Positions 20,166-27,427 of a stretch of 64,000 nt of DNA are shown in pieces. The stretch is taken from positions 1,597,339 through 1,661,338 of the forward strand of contig OX638329.1 of assembly GCA_951812755.1 (NCBI GenBank), given 5' to 3'. The DNA is from an uncultured Latescibacterota bacterium. GTDB lineage: Bacteria; Latescibacterota; UBA2968. The notes under the pieces were generated by a model. That model ran no database searches and was not told where the DNA came from. It saw nothing but the letters and a program-made list of their open reading frames with translations. A program made the position numbers and the translations under genes. Each line of letters starts with the position of its first letter. The first letter of the stretch is position 1.

Positions 20166-20915
20166 ATGTTGATTGCCAAGACCGAAGGACATTACCACTT
20201 TCTCAAGGGTATTGATCCCTATTCTTGCGGCGTTATTGCCGATTCCGGGTGGGAGATCGTCCATGTGACACTGGAACAGGTGCTGCCCTGGCGCCAGGGG
20301 TTTGACCAGGTCGAGGCGCATTTACGGGAGGTCGGGCGGGATCGGCAGGCATTGTGCGGCATGGAGTTGCGCTCGCCAGCGCCTTTTACTATGGCGGGGT
20401 TTATTGCCTTCAATCGGGATTATTGTCGGGTGCTCAGGGCATGGGACCTGTACGTGGGGGAATTGAATCCGGTGGCTCGCACCAATGTGGCACCGCTGTT
20501 CGATCCGCCCGGGGAGCCGGTGCTGCACGCATTTTCCTACACGGTGCCGGCAGCGGTTGATGCACCCCGGACTCTGGTGATCGCCGGTGCTGGGGAATTG
20601 CGCGAGGGAGTATTATTAGAGCAGGGCATTGTCCGCAGCGGGGATACCAGTGAAGAAGCTATGAGGGAGAAGGTTAGTTATGTGGTGGATGTAATGGTCG
20701 AACGTTTGTTCGGTCTGGGTGGATCATGGGAGATGATCAATGCGGTGGATGTGTACACGGTGCATTCTCTGGACGGGCTGGTAGAGGATATTTTGTTGAA
20801 TCGCATGGAACCTGCTCGGCGGCACGGCTTCCGCTGGCACTTTACCCGGCCGCCAGTGGTCGATATTGAATTTGAGATGGATATGCGCGGGGTGCGTCGG
20901 GATCTGGTGATATAG
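20166..20915 (+). CDS. RidA-like two-part protein of unknown function
   Basis: A 249-residue protein starting 14 bases after the preceding gene. The middle contains VARTNVAPLF and HAFSYTVPA, a pairing reminiscent of RidA-type folds, and its length would suit two RidA-like units, but no diagnostic arginine motif is clear. There is no membrane segment. I cannot name a function; the RidA link is tentative. Confidence 0.5.
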   Translation: MLIAKTEGHYHFLKGIDPYSCGVIADSGWEIVHVTLEQVLPWRQGFDQVEAHLREVGRDRQALCGMELRSPAPFTMAGFIAFNRDYCRVLRAWDLYVGELNPVARTNVAPLFDPPGEPVLHAFSYTVPAAVDAPRTLVIAGAGELREGVLLEQGIVRSGDTSEEAMREKVSYVVDVMVERLFGLGGSWEMINAVDVYTVHSLDGLVEDILLNRMEPARRHGFRWHFTRPPVVDIEFEMDMRGVRRDLVI

Positions 20916-20917
20916 GT

Positions 20918-20972
20918 GAATTAAGAATTGAGAATTGGGAGTAGGGCGGACTGACAACTGACAACTGACAGC
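20918..20972 (+). repeat. Short AATTGAGAATT and CTGACAA repeats
   Basis: Low-complexity intergenic DNA with an AATTAAGAATTGAGAATT-type block followed by three tandem CTGACAA-like units. A related block in inverse sense (CTCAATTTTTAATT units) lies at 51635-51668. Likely a dispersed repeat family; no function visible. Confidence 0.5.
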
Positions 20973-20988
20973 TAAATAATATTTTTTC

Positions 20989-21018
20989 TTGACATATTCC
21001 ACTGAGATTGCGTAAGTT
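20989..21018 (+). promoter_or_regulatory. Probable promoter of the ilvN-leu operon leader
   Basis: A perfect TTGACA -35 box (20989-20994) followed at 18 bases by a weak TAAGTT -10. It sits just before a leader ORF at 21066, the position expected for an attenuated amino-acid operon. The -10 is poor, so the exact start is uncertain. Confidence 0.5.
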
Positions 21019-21065: not shown

Positions 21066-21227
21066 ATGCGCTCAATTTCCACATTGGCGATTTCCACAAT
21101 GCGAGGCGGTGTACAACTGTTCATCCGTTCTTCGCGCCTTTCTATTGCAGGTCGAGTAGATGCGCGTCTGCTTATTCTGCACCTTCTCCTGCTCGTGAGC
21201 CTTTTTCTATCTATTCTCACTCATTAG
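21066..21227 (+). CDS. Leu/Ile/Val-rich leader peptide (attenuation)
   Basis: A 53-residue ORF that ends in an extreme run of branched-chain residues: the last 20 residues include RLLILHLLLLVSLFLSIL, with 11 Leu, 3 Ile and 1 Val in 18. It sits between a promoter and ilvN-leuA-leuC-leuD, exactly where leu and ilv leader peptides lie in other bacteria. The Leu codons overlap an RNA segment that can pair with a downstream hairpin arm. The start codon is uncertain because no ribosome-binding site is obvious; ATG 21099 in the same frame is an alternative. Function is inferred from composition, position and RNA pairing. Confidence 0.65.
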   Translation: MRSISTLAISTMRGGVQLFIRSSRLSIAGRVDARLLILHLLLLVSLFLSILTH

Positions 21228-21280
21228 TTTCAGGCTCTTTCCCTACTCTTGCGACAACACCCATAAAAGGACAGAGCCTG
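21197..21280 (+). promoter_or_regulatory. Attenuator: mutually exclusive RNA hairpins
   Basis: The segment CAGGCTCT (21231-21238) can pair with AGAGCCTG (21273-21280) over 8 bp. Alternatively its core AGGCTC pairs with GAGCCT (21197-21202) inside the Leu-codon run of the leader peptide. The two pairings exclude each other, as in classical attenuation controlled by ribosome stalling. The distal hairpin lacks a U-tract, so it may work by Rho, by pausing or on translation rather than as an intrinsic terminator. Confidence 0.55.
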
Positions 21281-21328
21281 TGATTTACTCATAGGTCGTT
21301 GTCACCTCATGTATTCAGGAAATGTTTA

Positions 21329-21820
21329 ATGACTCAAAAACACACGATAAGTGCTCTGGTCGAAAACCATTTTGGCGTTCTGTGTCGCGTTGCTGGCCTT
21401 TTCTCCAGTCGCGGATTCAATATCGATAGTCTATCCGTTGGCGAGACAGAAGATCCCAGTATTTCTCGGATGACCATTGTCGTCGGTGGCGACGACAGTG
21501 TGCTCGAACAAGTGGTCAAGCAATTGGATCGCCTCATTGATGTCATTCGGGTGATCGATATTACGCAGGGCGCATTTGTCGAACGCGAACTCATGTTGAT
21601 CAAGGTCAAAGCCGATACAACAACGCGTGCAGAAATTATCCAAATTGCCGAAGTGTTTCGCTCAAATATTGTCGATGTATGTCCCAGATCGATGACCATA
21701 GAAGTTACGGGCAAAAATGATAAGATTCAGGCTATCATTGGCATGCTCAGTTCTTTTGGCATCGAAGAAATCGCGCGCACAGGCACGGTTGCCCTGTTGC
21801 GAGATTCCGCGATACAATAA
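21329..21820 (+). CDS. ilvN: Acetolactate synthase small (regulatory) subunit
   Basis: A 163-residue regulatory subunit with an N-terminal ACT domain ([25 protein letters not shown]) that binds valine for feedback control, then the conserved C-terminal domain. The ATG at 21329 is chosen because AGGAA lies 8 bases upstream and the family starts at this point; an in-frame upstream start would add ten residues. No ilvB (catalytic subunit) is in the window, so the partner must be encoded elsewhere. Followed by a small ORF and leuA. Confidence 0.93.
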
Positions 21821-21956: not shown

Positions 21957-23513
21957 ATGTCAAACGCCAAAAACAAAGACCGCGTCATTATTTTTGATAC
22001 TACTTTGAGAGATGCGGAACAGACGCCAGGGGCTTCGCTCGCGTTGCGCGAAAAAGTTGAAATTGCCCACCAACTCGCGCGGCTCAATGTCGATGTTATT
22101 GAGGCCGGATTTCCCATATCGTCCGATCAGGACTACAATGCTGTGCGGCGTATTGCACACGAGGTCGAAGGCCCTGTTATTTGCGGTCTGTCTCGCGCAA
22201 TTTTCAAAGATATTGACCGCGCAGGTGAAGCCCTGAAAGGCGCGCCAAGACCGCGCATACACACGTTTATTGGCACATCGCCGCTCCATATTTCCATGGT
22301 TGGCAAAACGCCCAATCAAGTTTTGCAAATGGCTGTTGATGCGGTTGCACGAGCCAAATCGCATTGCGAGGATGTGGAATTTTCACCAATGGATGCTGCG
22401 CGTACTGAGCCGCAATATCTCCACGATGTGATCGAAGCTACCATTGAAGCGGGTGCTACGACGATCAATATTCCCGATACCGTGGGCTACGCAGTACCCG
22501 ACCAGTTTGGTCGTATTATTCGCAATATTTGTGAGAAAGTGCCCAATGTCGATCAGGCTATTATCAGTGTCCACTGCCACGACGATTTGGGCATGGCGAC
22601 TATCAATGCTCTCGAGGCACTCAGAAATGGCGCGCGTCAGGTCGAATGCACCGTCAATGGATTGGGTGAACGCGCGGGCAATACCTCGCTTGAAGAAGTG
22701 GTCATGGCTGTCAAAACGCGCGGGGATTATTTCGACCTCTATACGGATATCAAAACGCGCGAAATCGTAAACACAAGCCGTCTGGTCAGCCGCCTTATGG
22801 GTATTGTCGTTCCGCCCAACAAGCCCATTGTAGGAGCCAACGCATTTGCACATAGTTCTGGTATCCATCAAGACGGGGTGCTCAAAGACCGCGAAAATTT
22901 TGAAATTATCGATCCCAGATCTGTGGGATGGGAAGAATCGAGTATTGTGCTCACGGCGCGTTCTGGCCGCCACGCATTGCGCCATCGCCTGGAAGAACTC
23001 GGCTATCATCTCAATCAAGATGAATTAAATATTGCTTATGAGCGCTTTGTCAAAGTTGCAGATAAAAAGAAGGAAGTGTATGACGAAGACCTCATGGCTA
23101 TTGTGGAAGATGAAATTCGAGATTTTCCCATGCGGTTCGTGTTGGACTATTTACATACTGTGAGCGGTACTGGCACGGTTCCCTCTGCGACGGTTCGCAT
23201 TGGTATTGACGGCAAAAATCACGTTCAGGAATCAGCTTGGGGCGATGGGCCGGTAGATGCAACGTATCGGGCGATTAAGAAAGCCACGGATAATACAAAT
23301 ACAAAAGTGGAAGACTATACTATCCGCGGCGTTACCGGGGGTGCCGAAGCAATGGGAGAAGTCACGGTCAATGTGTCGTGCAATGGTCGCATATCCAGGG
23401 GGCGCGGCGTTTCAACTGATATTATTGAAGCCAGTGCCAAAGCTTTTCTCGACGCTCTCAATCGCATGGCGATTCAGCAAGATAATCACAAGGAGCGAGA
23501 ACCAACCGTTTAG
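21957..23513 (+). CDS. leuA: 2-isopropylmalate synthase
   Basis: A 518-residue enzyme that condenses acetyl-CoA with 2-oxoisovalerate, the first committed step of leucine synthesis. The TIM barrel begins with FDTTLRDAEQTPG and contains the metal motif VHCHDDLGMA; GLGERAGNTSLEE is a family signature. The C-terminal LeuA regulatory domain for leucine feedback is complete (DGPVDATYRAI...). Length fits LeuA of the long type rather than homocitrate synthase. It lies in the operon behind ilvN. A second enzyme of the same superfamily, CimA, is encoded 2.3 kb downstream. Confidence 0.95.
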   Translation: MSNAKNKDRVIIFDTTLRDAEQTPGASLALREKVEIAHQLARLNVDVIEAGFPISSDQDYNAVRRIAHEVEGPVICGLSRAIFKDIDRAGEALKGAPRPRIHTFIGTSPLHISMVGKTPNQVLQMAVDAVARAKSHCEDVEFSPMDAARTEPQYLHDVIEATIEAGATTINIPDTVGYAVPDQFGRIIRNICEKVPNVDQAIISVHCHDDLGMATINALEALRNGARQVECTVNGLGERAGNTSLEEVVMAVKTRGDYFDLYTDIKTREIVNTSRLVSRLMGIVVPPNKPIVGANAFAHSSGIHQDGVLKDRENFEIIDPRSVGWEESSIVLTARSGRHALRHRLEELGYHLNQDELNIAYERFVKVADKKKEVYDEDLMAIVEDEIRDFPMRFVLDYLHTVSGTGTVPSATVRIGIDGKNHVQESAWGDGPVDATYRAIKKATDNTNTKVEDYTIRGVTGGAEAMGEVTVNVSCNGRISRGRGVSTDIIEASAKAFLDALNRMAIQQDNHKEREPTV

Positions 23514-23671: not shown

Positions 23672-25069
23672 ATGGGTCATAGTTTATTTCACAAAGTTTG
23701 GGACGCGCATGCGGTGCGAACGCTGCCATCGGGGCAAACGCAATTGTTTATCGGCCTGCATCTCGTTCACGAGGTTACCAGCCCGCAGGCTTTTGATATG
23801 CTCAGAGAGCGCGGTCTCACTATTGCATATCCAGAACGCACATTTGCCACGGTTGATCATATTGTACCTACAAGCGATGTTGCCCGTCCATTTGCCGACG
23901 GTATGGCCGAGGACATGATGATCGCCATTGAAGAGAATGCCCAACAGTTTGGCCTTTCTTTTTTTGGGCTCGACGACGAGCGTCAGGGTATTGTCCATGT
24001 TATTGGTCCCGAATTGGGCCTGACACAGCCGGGGATGACCATTGCCTGTGGCGATAGCCACACCTCAACGCACGGAGCTTATGGCGCCATTGCATTTGGC
24101 ATTGGCACCTCGCAGGTGCGCGATGTGCTCGCTACGCAGTGTCTGGCGATGGATCCTCTCAAAGTGCGCCGTATTGAAGTATCCGGCACGCTGGGTAATG
24201 GGGTTTACGCCAAAGATGTTATTCTCAATATCATCCGCAATCTCGGTGTAAAAGGCGGCACGGGCTATGCTTACGAATATGCTGGATCCGCTATTGAAGC
24301 TATGGATATGGAAGCGCGCATGTCGGTGTGCAATATGTCGATTGAAGGCGGCGCGCGCGCGGGGTACGTGAATCCCGATCAGACGACTTATGACTATCTG
24401 CGGGGACGCACTTATGCACCTTCGGGCGAAGCTTTTGATCGCGCGGTTTCCTGGTGGCGTTCTATGGCTTCCGATACCGATGCCGATTACGACGATGTTT
24501 ATCACCTCGATGGCTCTGCCCTCGAGCCTACCGTGACATGGGGTATTACGCCGGGACAGGCGCTTTTTGTATCAGAAAAAGTGCCTGCTTTGACGGATCT
24601 GCCCGATGATGAGCGCGATGTTGCAGCCGAAGCATATAATTATATGGACTTAAAGCCGGGCACGGCCATATCTGGTATGCCTATTGACGTGGCTTTTGTG
24701 GGTTCGTGTACCAACAGCCGTATATCCGACCTCAGAGAAGCTGCCAGAGTTGTCAAGGGACACAAGGTGGCCGATGGCATCAAAGCACTGGTTGTGCCGG
24801 GGTCCAAATCCGTTCTCAAGACAGCGGAAGCGGAAGGCTTGCACCACATTTTTGAAGATGCTGGCTTTGAATGGCGCGGTGCTGGGTGTTCGATGTGTTT
24901 GGCTATGAATCCCGACAAATTGCAGGGACGCGAAGTGTGCGCGTCGTCGAGCAATCGCAATTTCAAAGGGCGTCAGGGTAGCCCCACGGGGCGCACGCTC
25001 TTGATGAGTCCCGCAATGGTTGCAGCCGCGGCTATTGCCGGTGAGGTTATTGACGTACGCGCTATGTGA
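23672..25069 (+). CDS. leuC: 3-isopropylmalate dehydratase large subunit
   Basis: A 465-residue aconitase-superfamily subunit that isomerises 2- to 3-isopropylmalate with LeuD. The [4Fe-4S] ligands are recognisable: VGSCTNSRI and the paired cysteines of [24 protein letters not shown] and the substrate loop [11 protein letters not shown] are typical. Full length for the bacterial LeuC family. It lies 14 bases before leuD, separated from leuA by a 158-base hairpin region. Cytosolic; cluster assembly factors are not in this window. Confidence 0.96.
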
Positions 25070-25083
25070 AGGAAGGGTTATTT

Positions 25084-25677
25084 ATGAATTCATCTGTGAT
25101 CCAGTATGTAGAAGGGCGCGCGATTCCGGTTCGGGGAAATGACATCGATACCGATCGCATTATTCCCGCGCGGTATCTTCGCGCTATTACGTTTGAAGGC
25201 CTGGGTGAGCACGCCTTTGAAGACGACCGCAAATCAAATCCCGATCACCCATTTAATAATCCGCGCTATCAGGGCGCGTCCGTACTCATCGCCAATGACA
25301 ATTTTGGGTGTGGGTCTTCGAGAGAACACGCGCCCCAGGCTCTGATGCGCTGGGGGATTTATGCCATTGTGGGCGAATCTTTTGCCGAAATTTTTCTGGG
25401 TAATTGCACGGCTATGGGCGTGCCTTGTCTGACGGCTTCAACCGAGGATATTATCAAGATGCAGGACGCAGCCGAAGCAGATCCGCAACGAGAAATGGCG
25501 GTTGATCTCAAAGAAAAAAAATTGACATTTGGCGATATCGAAGTCGATCTGCAAATTGCCGAAGGCAATCGGCTCCAACTCATTGAGGGGGCGTGGGATG
25601 CAACGGGCATGCTCTTTGAAGGCAGAGATGCAGTGCGGGATATCGCCAACAAACTTCCCTATGTTACGGGCTTTTAA
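25084..25677 (+). CDS. leuD: 3-isopropylmalate dehydratase small subunit
   Basis: A 197-residue swivel-domain subunit partnering LeuC. Visible motifs: GNDIDTDRIIPARYLR near the N-terminus and NFGCGSSREHAPQAL, which contributes substrate contacts. AAGGAAGGG precedes ATG 25084, the start chosen over an in-frame GTG that would overlap leuC. An intrinsic terminator follows, ending the leu operon. leuB is not seen nearby. Confidence 0.95.
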   Translation: MNSSVIQYVEGRAIPVRGNDIDTDRIIPARYLRAITFEGLGEHAFEDDRKSNPDHPFNNPRYQGASVLIANDNFGCGSSREHAPQALMRWGIYAIVGESFAEIFLGNCTAMGVPCLTASTEDIIKMQDAAEADPQREMAVDLKEKKLTFGDIEVDLQIAEGNRLQLIEGAWDATGMLFEGRDAVRDIANKLPYVTGF

Positions 25678-25846: not shown

Positions 25847-27427
25847 ATGTCTGAACTTGTACAAATCTACGATTCGACCCTTCGAGACGGCGCGCAGGCC
25901 GAGGGTATTTCATTTTCGGCTGAAGACAAAACCATGATTGCACAACATCTCGATGCTATGGGCATTCATTATGTTGAAGGCGGTTGGCCCAATCCGACGA
26001 ATCCCAAGGATCTCGAATTTTTTGACCGCGTGCGCGATCTCGAATTTCACAATACCAAAATTGTTGCTTTTGGCAGTACATGCAGGGTTGACAATCCGCC
26101 CGAAGACGATCCCACTCTCACCACTTTGCTCAGGGCAGGTACAGAAGTTATCACGCTCTTTGGGAAAAGCTGGACGCTTCATGTAACCGATGTGTTGCGG
26201 GCGACACTGGACGAAAACCTGCAAATTATCAGGGATTCTTGCGCCTGGCTCAAGGAAAACGGGCGAGAAGTTATTTACGATGCCGAACACTTCTTCGATG
26301 GTTACAAAGCCGATCCCGAATACGCACTGGAAACTTTGTTGGCCGCGCAAGAAGGCGGAGCCGAGGTGCTCGTCTTGTGCGATACCAATGGCGGCATGAT
26401 GCCGTATCAGATACAGGAGATTATCAGTGCCATTCAACCCAGGCTCGATGTGCCTTTGGGCATTCACACACACAACGACGCGGGAATGGCCGTAGCGAAT
26501 AGTATTGTCGCACTCGAAATGGGTGCTACGCATGTGCAGGGGACTATCAATGGTTATGGGGAACGCTGTGGCAATGCCAACCTGTGTTCGGTGATTCCCA
26601 ATATTGAATTTAAGTTGGGGATGAAAGCTATTGGCGCGAAAAATCTCAAAAGACTTATGGAATTATCGCGCTTTGTCAGCGAAATCGCCAATGTCTATCA
26701 CGACCACCGCCAACCTTATGTGGGTGAGAGTGCTTTTGCACACAAAGCAGGGGTTCACGTAGATGCGATGCTCAAACAACCCGTCGCGTATGAGCATTGC
26801 GATGCAGAAGCTGTGGGCAATCAGCGCCGGTTTTTGCTTTCAGAACAATCGGGTGGCGGGGCTGTTGCAGCAAAATTGGACCATTTGATTCCGGGTCTGG
26901 ATAAACGCCATCCAACTGTCCAAAAATTGTTGCAAAAAATTAAGCAGCTCGAACATGAGGGCTATGTTTTTGAAGCCGCCGAGGCGTCGTTTGAAATTAT
27001 CGCCCGGCAGATATTGGGTAGTATTCGCAAACCGTTTAAGCTCATCAATTACAGGACGATTAATCGCAAAAGTGCTGCAGGCTCTGAAGTGGAAGCCATT
27101 GTCAAGATAGAAATTGAGGGACAGATTTACCACACGGTTGGCGAAGGCGATGGTCCTGTCAATGCCCTCGACTCGGCATTGCGCCTGGCACTGGAACCAA
27201 AGTATCCCACGCTCAAGGATGTGCGCCTCGAAGACTATAAAGTGCGCGTGTTATCCAGTGCCGATGGCACGGCGGCCAAAGTGAGGGTGCTGATTGAGTC
27301 CTCTGACCGGCGGCGCGTGTGGAGTACTGTAGGTGTATCTGAAAATATCATTGAAGCCAGTTGGACAGCACTGGTCGATAGTTTGACTTATAAATTGTTG
27401 CTTGACGATATTATCGTTATTGACTGA
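25847..27427 (+). CDS. cimA: (R)-citramalate synthase
   Basis: A 526-residue DRE-TIM metallolyase that condenses pyruvate with acetyl-CoA to citramalate, opening the threonine-independent route to isoleucine. The family signature YDSTLRDGAQAEGISFS starts the barrel and GIHTHNDAGMAVAN supplies the metal ligands. The N-terminus and the GTINGYGERCGNANL motif distinguish it from LeuA. A C-terminal regulatory domain is present (GDGPVNALDSALR). An AGAGGAA site precedes the ATG. LeuCD, encoded upstream, can also isomerise citramalate, so the gene order makes metabolic sense. Confidence 0.92.
   Translation: MSELVQIYDSTLRDGAQAEGISFSAEDKTMIAQHLDAMGIHYVEGGWPNPTNPKDLEFFDRVRDLEFHNTKIVAFGSTCRVDNPPEDDPTLTTLLRAGTEVITLFGKSWTLHVTDVLRATLDENLQIIRDSCAWLKENGREVIYDAEHFFDGYKADPEYALETLLAAQEGGAEVLVLCDTNGGMMPYQIQEIISAIQPRLDVPLGIHTHNDAGMAVANSIVALEMGATHVQGTINGYGERCGNANLCSVIPNIEFKLGMKAIGAKNLKRLMELSRFVSEIANVYHDHRQPYVGESAFAHKAGVHVDAMLKQPVAYEHCDAEAVGNQRRFLLSEQSGGGAVAAKLDHLIPGLDKRHPTVQKLLQKIKQLEHEGYVFEAAEASFEIIARQILGSIRKPFKLINYRTINRKSAAGSEVEAIVKIEIEGQIYHTVGEGDGPVNALDSALRLALEPKYPTLKDVRLEDYKVRVLSSADGTAAKVRVLIESSDRRRVWSTVGVSENIIEASWTALVDSLTYKLLLDDIIVID

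Follow-up and report, generated by a model that had tools for sequence, protein, structure and literature searches.

A probable leucine-responsive attenuator, mostly lacking a U-tract, ahead of ilvN or ilvC in a class of Latescibacterota

Here, we describe a leader upstream of ilvN-leuACD in a Latescibacterota genome that probably acts as a ribosome-mediated attenuator, tying expression of these genes to charged leucyl-tRNA with isoleucine and valine contributing, and whose targets in sister lineages are probably ilvN-ilvC-leuA or ilvC-leuA. The parts of the leader are conserved across the class, and two of its helices, which exclude each other, carry compensatory changes. More tentatively, we propose a class-wide group of leucine-codon attenuators that kept the switch and do without the U-tract, in which a stalled ribosome may control Rho or a hairpin pause, while ilvB of the same genus would keep the intrinsic form.

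Architecture of the leader

The window, that is, the whole 64,000-nt stretch of DNA that was analysed (G000:C1:1597339-1661338), comes from a 6.53-Mb single-contig genome (G000). The leader and the genes behind it are arranged in it as follows.

20989..21018, + strand: putative promoter, with TTGACA at 20989-20994, an 18-nt spacer and the -10 element TAAGTT at 21013-21018
21066..21227, + strand: leader peptide ORF, 53 codons, ATG to TAG (stop codon 21225-21227)
21165..21224, + strand: regulatory codon run, the final 20 codons, with 10 Leu, 2 Ile and 1 Val
21197..21202, + strand: region 1, GAGCCU (GAGCCT in DNA), within the Leu codons; pairs with region 2
21231..21238, + strand: region 2, CAGGCTCT (also given as CAGGCUCU), beginning 3 nt past the stop codon
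21239..21272, + strand: linker, 34 nt, C-rich and G-poor, a possible Rho loading stretch
21273..21280, + strand: region 3, AGAGCCTG (also given as AGAGCCUG); helix 2:3 is the putative antiterminator
21276..21296, + strand: hairpin 3:4, GCCUGUGA-UUUAC-UCAUAGGU, in terminator position, no U-tract behind it
21329..21820, + strand: ilvN, acetolactate synthase small subunit, the first controlled gene (NCBIfam PRK11895.1, E 1.7e-68)
21957..23513, + strand: leuA, 2-isopropylmalate synthase
23672..25069, + strand: leuC, isopropylmalate dehydratase large subunit
25066..25677, + strand: leuD, isopropylmalate dehydratase small subunit
25847..27427, + strand: citramalate synthase gene (TIGR00977, E 2.2e-216)

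The original prediction had placed a 53-codon ORF between a TTGACA promoter and ilvN, and the ORF is present as described; by eye, no clear Shine-Dalgarno sequence precedes it. TTGACA is also in place, and 38 of 41 loci have the exact hexamer 5' of their leader; the site is a probable promoter, with a -10 element that is weak in this genome and a position that a simple promoter scan did not list. Directly 5' of it lies a short tandem repeat, ctgacaactgacaactgacag (window 20951-20971), that is missing in most of the other genomes compared, and the gene directly upstream (window 20166-20915) matches CnbZ, 2-amino-5-chloromuconate deaminase (NF049982, E 8.8e-91).

The branched-chain residues had been overcounted, as 11 Leu, 3 Ile and 1 Val in 18: the final 18 residues of the leader hold 9 Leu, 2 Ile and 1 Val. 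Among the 713 window ORFs of 25-120 aa, it alone has at least 13 I/L/V within the last 20 residues, and dinucleotide shuffling of these 60 nt rarely yields such a run (p = 0.002). A chance origin of the leader was ruled out by this census, the shuffle tests and the covariation of helices 2:3 and 3:4.

Region 2 has two partners, region 1 inside the Leu run or region 3, at the sites that had been proposed. The proposal had overlooked a fourth region: GCCTGTGA (21276-21283) pairs with TCATAGGT (21289-21296) in an 8-bp hairpin of -9.6 kcal/mol, followed by the tail CGTTGTCA with 3 T in 8. Helices 2:3 and 3:4 both use GCCTG and are mutually exclusive. The order of the parts, from the Leu codons through the stop codon, region 2 and the linker to regions 3 and 4, and the two exclusive covarying helices match those of a trp-type attenuator. 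Taken by itself, the fold of the window leader is weak evidence (z -2.3 over 286 nt and -1.05 over 161 nt); the case for an attenuator rests on comparison.

Downstream of the leader, the gene order is ilvN, leuA, leuC, leuD, citramalate synthase, aminotransferase and argJ, and the spacing suggests that the citramalate synthase gene probably belongs to the ilvN-leuACD operon. The best ilvB match of the genome is far away (G000:C1:5742718-5744430). An in-frame TTG at 21299 (window 21299-21328) would lengthen IlvN by 10 codons; the ATG at 21329, with AGGAA ahead of it, looks the better start.

We infer the logic of the ribosome, and likewise the stopping of transcription by 3:4, from this anatomy. 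When leucine is ample, the ribosome would run to the stop codon and cover region 2, leaving region 3 free to form 3:4, and most transcripts would stop ahead of the operon. When leucine is scarce, the ribosome would stall within the Leu run, over region 1, so that region 2 could pair with region 3, 3:4 would be blocked and transcription would continue. The signal may be mixed, as Ile and Val codons belong to the run.

Conservation across the class

Of the 47 genomes of the class, 43 have this layout, 20 of them before ilvN and 23 before ilvC. We found ilvN in 19 of the 21 genomes of the order (G000-G020) and in one further genome of the class (G021), and in all 20 upstream regions there is a leader ORF whose end is rich in I/L/V, the coding frame holding more I/L/V than both other frames. 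Against dinucleotide shuffles, the run is significant at 19 of these loci (p at most 0.0115); in the remaining genome, G014, it is weak (p 0.14) and Ile outnumber Leu.

A covariance model built from the 20 ilvN loci (R1) and run over 64 genomes of the phylum also matched 15 genomes of family f4, and each time an I/L/V-rich leader ORF ends at the start of the match and ilvC lies downstream. Six further f4 loci were recognised by reading them by eye, and those of G040 and G042 were found with R2, a 41-locus model that had neither in its training set, which brings the leader before ilvC to 23 of 25 f4 genomes. The E-values of both models are rough, training loci match by construction and the relatives are mostly draft genomes. 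IlvC was identified by family search for G027 and G040, and by the conserved protein start, as a matter of judgement, for the others. In G011 and G012, ilvC sits between ilvN and leuA, a layout intermediate between the two gene contexts that argues for a single inherited element. Thus, the relatives keep the ORF, the run and the pairings, whose absence was what the original prediction had named as its refutation.

The class genomes in which no locus was found are G019 and G020, where neither ilvN nor leuA was hit at E<=1e-80, G023, which has another gene before leuA (presumably reductoisomerase-like), and G038, in which leuA is close to a contig end. Outside the class, R1 and R2 over the 64 phylum genomes gave weak hits only (R2: E 0.0076 and 0.018). 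The low-scoring hits in G044:C88, G007:C109, G048, G054, G050, G019 and G044:C61 were read by eye and rejected; the remaining weak hits are those of R1 at E 0.1-1 and the R2 hits G032:C211 and G034:C237. Among the loci inspected, family f4 has no leader immediately before leuA and none evident before ilvB, and in other classes of the phylum ilvN follows closely behind ilvB with no leader in between.

Several observations on these genomes stand apart from the leader itself. Matches to ilvC (TIGR00465, E<=1e-60) were obtained in just 3 of the 21 genomes of the order (G011, G012 and G019), the window genome not among them, despite the presence of ilvB, ilvN and leuACD; the threshold may have excluded a divergent reductoisomerase. 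At the f4 ilvC loci L196-L216, a box, CTATG[CT]C, lies roughly 10 nt past hairpin 3:4 in 18 of 21 (counted by eye), and could serve for pausing or release, as a start codon or in some other way. A contig of a close relative with 99% identity in IlvN, JAPPIE010000009.1 (L032), carries the title Gemmatimonadota bacterium; its sisters go under Latescibacterota, and the difference is probably a labelling mismatch.

Covariation of the alternative helices

In an alignment of the 20 ilvN loci (A1), helix 2:3 is paired in 86.0% of cells and helix 3:4 in 87.9%; the covariation scores of both exceed those of all 500 shuffles, and pairing is far above that in slid registers. Adding the ilvC context gives an alignment of 41 loci (A4; 40 distinct rows, G040 and G042 not included), in which 2:3 is paired in 88.9% of cells, 20 of them changed on both sides, and 3:4 in 77.1%, with 17 both-side changes over four pairs. 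At the innermost position of the 2:3 core, all 40 distinct rows pair, 26 as C-G and 14 as U-A. For both helices, paired cells and covariation score exceed all 500 shuffles of A4, a comparison that kinship alone can win; slid registers, which preserve kinship, pair at most 64.6% (2:3) and 51.7% (3:4), while the covariation score of 2:3 is 0.175 in slid register +2 against 0.162 in the true one. A register count made without MAFFT gives 88.4% paired compared to a shuffle mean of 81.9%, with none of 5,000 shuffles as high, and RNAalifold, with no structure supplied, recovers 2:3 in both gene contexts.

Covarying stems, which had been named as something to look for in relatives, are 2:3 and 3:4. 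Helix 1:2 is paired in 96.5% of A1 cells with zero compensatory change, and has no covariation support because its sequence hardly varies; it is doubtful in f4, where region 1 was identified in only part of the loci. Across the 41 aligned loci, the GGCT of region 2 is invariant, and the stop codon overlaps region 2 or precedes it by 0-11 nt; in f4, region 2 begins with the TAG stop codon. The 3:4 stems of the 20 ilvN loci range from -6.5 to -11.3 kcal/mol, with a poor helix in family f2 and most of it missing in G017.

The missing U-tract and the termination step

The distal hairpin had been said to lack a U-tract, as a hint at a variant mechanism, and this is true of 3:4 in the window and well beyond it. 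Only one of 43 loci has a U-tract after 3:4 (G011, 8 T of 8, behind the same hairpin); at the remaining 19 ilvN loci, 2-3 of the 8 positions are T, and the 23 ilvC loci lack a tract. As the tract is lacking at 42 of the 43, termination probably needs help.

The same genus has an intrinsic-type leader elsewhere. In all 11 of its genomes (L170-L178, L180 and L181), ilvB is preceded by a Val/Ile leader that has a U-tract terminator, from which the lineage appears to use leader-peptide attenuation and the lack of the U-tract appears to be a property of the leucine leader, not of the organism. In the window genome, this probable second attenuator (L172, G000:C1:5743800-5745400, minus strand) encodes a Val/Ile-rich leader, MTHQITTSHIAITTAVVGRVVVLVPM, followed by the arms GATG..GGGA/TCCCGTCATC and a terminator-like hairpin with 5-8 or more T. 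Val-rich leaders with T-tract hairpins also occur before ilvB in G011, G015-G018 and G019. About 300-400 nt upstream of trpE (L223, G000:C1:5296510-5297877, minus strand), an aromatic-rich short ORF, MNAFATYFWYFWRRFDGRYYYYRRPSKSVVCPAC, precedes a U-tract hairpin and is possibly a third attenuator, and a search of the same genome for runs of His codons gave nothing leader-like.

Rho is a plausible terminating factor at the leucine leader. Rut sites are described as C-rich, G-poor and unstructured in the accessible part of PMC8346122, and in the linker C outnumbers G at every one of the 41 loci (490 to 167); since the 110 nt of leader coding sequence 5' of region 1, taken as a control, likewise have more C than G in 20 of 20 (784 to 479), this richness is weak evidence for Rho. 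C and G are about even in the ilvB antiterminator loops, and a rho gene is over the cut-off in 19 of the 21 genomes of the order. For the last step, we give somewhat less than an even chance to Rho that loads onto the C-rich linker and catches a polymerase slowed by 3:4; an intrinsic terminator that works without U residues is a weaker candidate, and a translational readout is unlikely.

That 3:4 might simply terminate unaided despite its poor U-tract, as a degenerate form of the conventional intrinsic attenuator, would fit the stability of the stems at the 20 ilvN loci and the U8 behind the same hairpin in G011. We nevertheless think it unlikely, as the absence of the tract is itself conserved over 42 loci and four families with the hairpin retained, and the same genus employs U-tracts before ilvB. 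The missing U-tract would also suit translational control of the kind described for the actinobacterial LEU element, in which the Shine-Dalgarno sequence ahead of ilvN or ilvC would be paired with the CUCCU-like Leu run until a stalled ribosome opened it. A base stem of this type is described for Actinobacteria in the accessible text of PMC1262725; here, UCCUG within the Leu run is paired with CAGGA ahead of ilvN in the window fold, and the stem is predicted in some loci, with a mean pairing of the Shine-Dalgarno sequence with the Leu run of 0.30 over 41 loci. When fixed stretches were folded thermodynamically with parts masked, the Shine-Dalgarno sequence had a mean accessibility of 0.37 in the free leader, 0.43 when the Leu run was covered and 0.44 when the ribosome sat at the stop codon. 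Masking of the Leu run increased it by more than 0.05 at just 19 of the 41 loci and decreased it at 5. Fed and starved states being alike, sequestration of the Shine-Dalgarno sequence lacks folding support, and the translation-based variant that had been suggested gains nothing from this test. It would also leave the covarying 2:3/3:4 switch unexplained, and we regard it as quite improbable.

The product of the ORF could instead be a small functional membrane peptide, with no regulatory role for the leader, since its hydrophobic run of roughly 20 residues resembles a transmembrane helix and single codon changes show some synonymous bias (407 synonymous, 449 non-synonymous). Summed over groups, codon differences at positions 1, 2 and 3 number 418, 394 and 561, only a mild third-position excess. 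The peptides diverge widely between genera save for their I/L/V content, the stop codon stays beside region 2 and either ilvN or ilvC always follows the element, which makes a membrane peptide highly improbable. Attenuation of the leu/ilv type, as originally read from the window, is the reading that the layout kept in relatives and the covariation of 2:3 and 3:4 support.

Comparison with known systems

Proteobacterial attenuators of the trp, leu and ilv type combine a run of cognate codons, a stop codon that lets the ribosome cover region 2, mutually exclusive helices 2:3 and 3:4, and a cognate operon. Attenuators of this kind are also the subject of PMC1183508. All four parts are present in the Latescibacterota leader. 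It differs from that type in lacking a U-tract at 42 of 43 loci, in its longer peptide of 53 codons, in its phylum, in preceding ilvN or ilvC and in having no Rfam match: against Rfam 15, with the Leu, ilv and other leader families and T-box compared at their gathering cut-offs, neither the window leader (to E 10) nor the loci of 15 relatives (to E 1) gave a relevant match. Thus, the element works like a trp-type attenuator in our reading, but we stop short of counting it as a full member, because an intrinsic terminator was looked for and not found at 42 of 43 loci.

Related systems are the ilvB-OMG, ilvB and ilvB-II motifs, which, in the portion of PMC10272879 available, have I/L/V-rich upstream ORFs and switching stems at branched-chain genes, as the Latescibacterota leader does, and of which ilvB-OMG was found in several phyla. 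In the same source these motifs precede ilvB, and ilvB-II has an intrinsic terminator; our leader has no Rfam hit. The actinobacterial LEU element likewise places a Leu-rich leader ORF before leucine genes, with no obvious terminator according to the accessible text of PMC1262725, but is defined there by a pseudoknot and a base stem to the leuA Shine-Dalgarno sequence, in place of the 1-2-3-4 switch seen here. The ilv-leu leader of S. aureus (PMC5794164, in part) also sets a Leu/Ile leader peptide over branched-chain genes outside Proteobacteria; it lies before ilvD, has a poly-U terminator and uses other alternative pairings.

A different likeness appears if the Rho model holds. A Rho-dependent leader with a leader peptide is tnaC. 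In mgtL, also Rho-dependent, a leader peptide, C-rich and G-poor RNA and the lack of a U-tract are described in the accessible part of PMC8346122. Leaders of the mgtL and tnaC type sense Mg2+ or tryptophan, not the end product of their operon, and the role of Rho in our leader is putative.

A 2010 survey states, in its available portion (PMC2965389), that, until its own Firmicutes case, Proteobacteria and Actinobacteria were the only groups in which leader-peptide systems had been demonstrated, and that a single Rho-dependent attenuator was known at that time. The lineage had been put forward as one in which such attenuation was undescribed, and our literature search for leader-peptide attenuation in Latescibacterota or Latescibacteria, which left most subscription papers outside its reach, found no report. 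The leader extends leader-peptide attenuation of branched-chain genes to a phylum for which no report was found. A switch lacking a U-tract beside a canonical one in the same genus makes a natural pair for probing the role of the hairpin, and screens that require poly-U would overlook such leaders. Leader-peptide attenuation of branched-chain genes is already well known; what appears to be new is its occurrence in Latescibacterota and the lack of a U-tract at nearly all loci.
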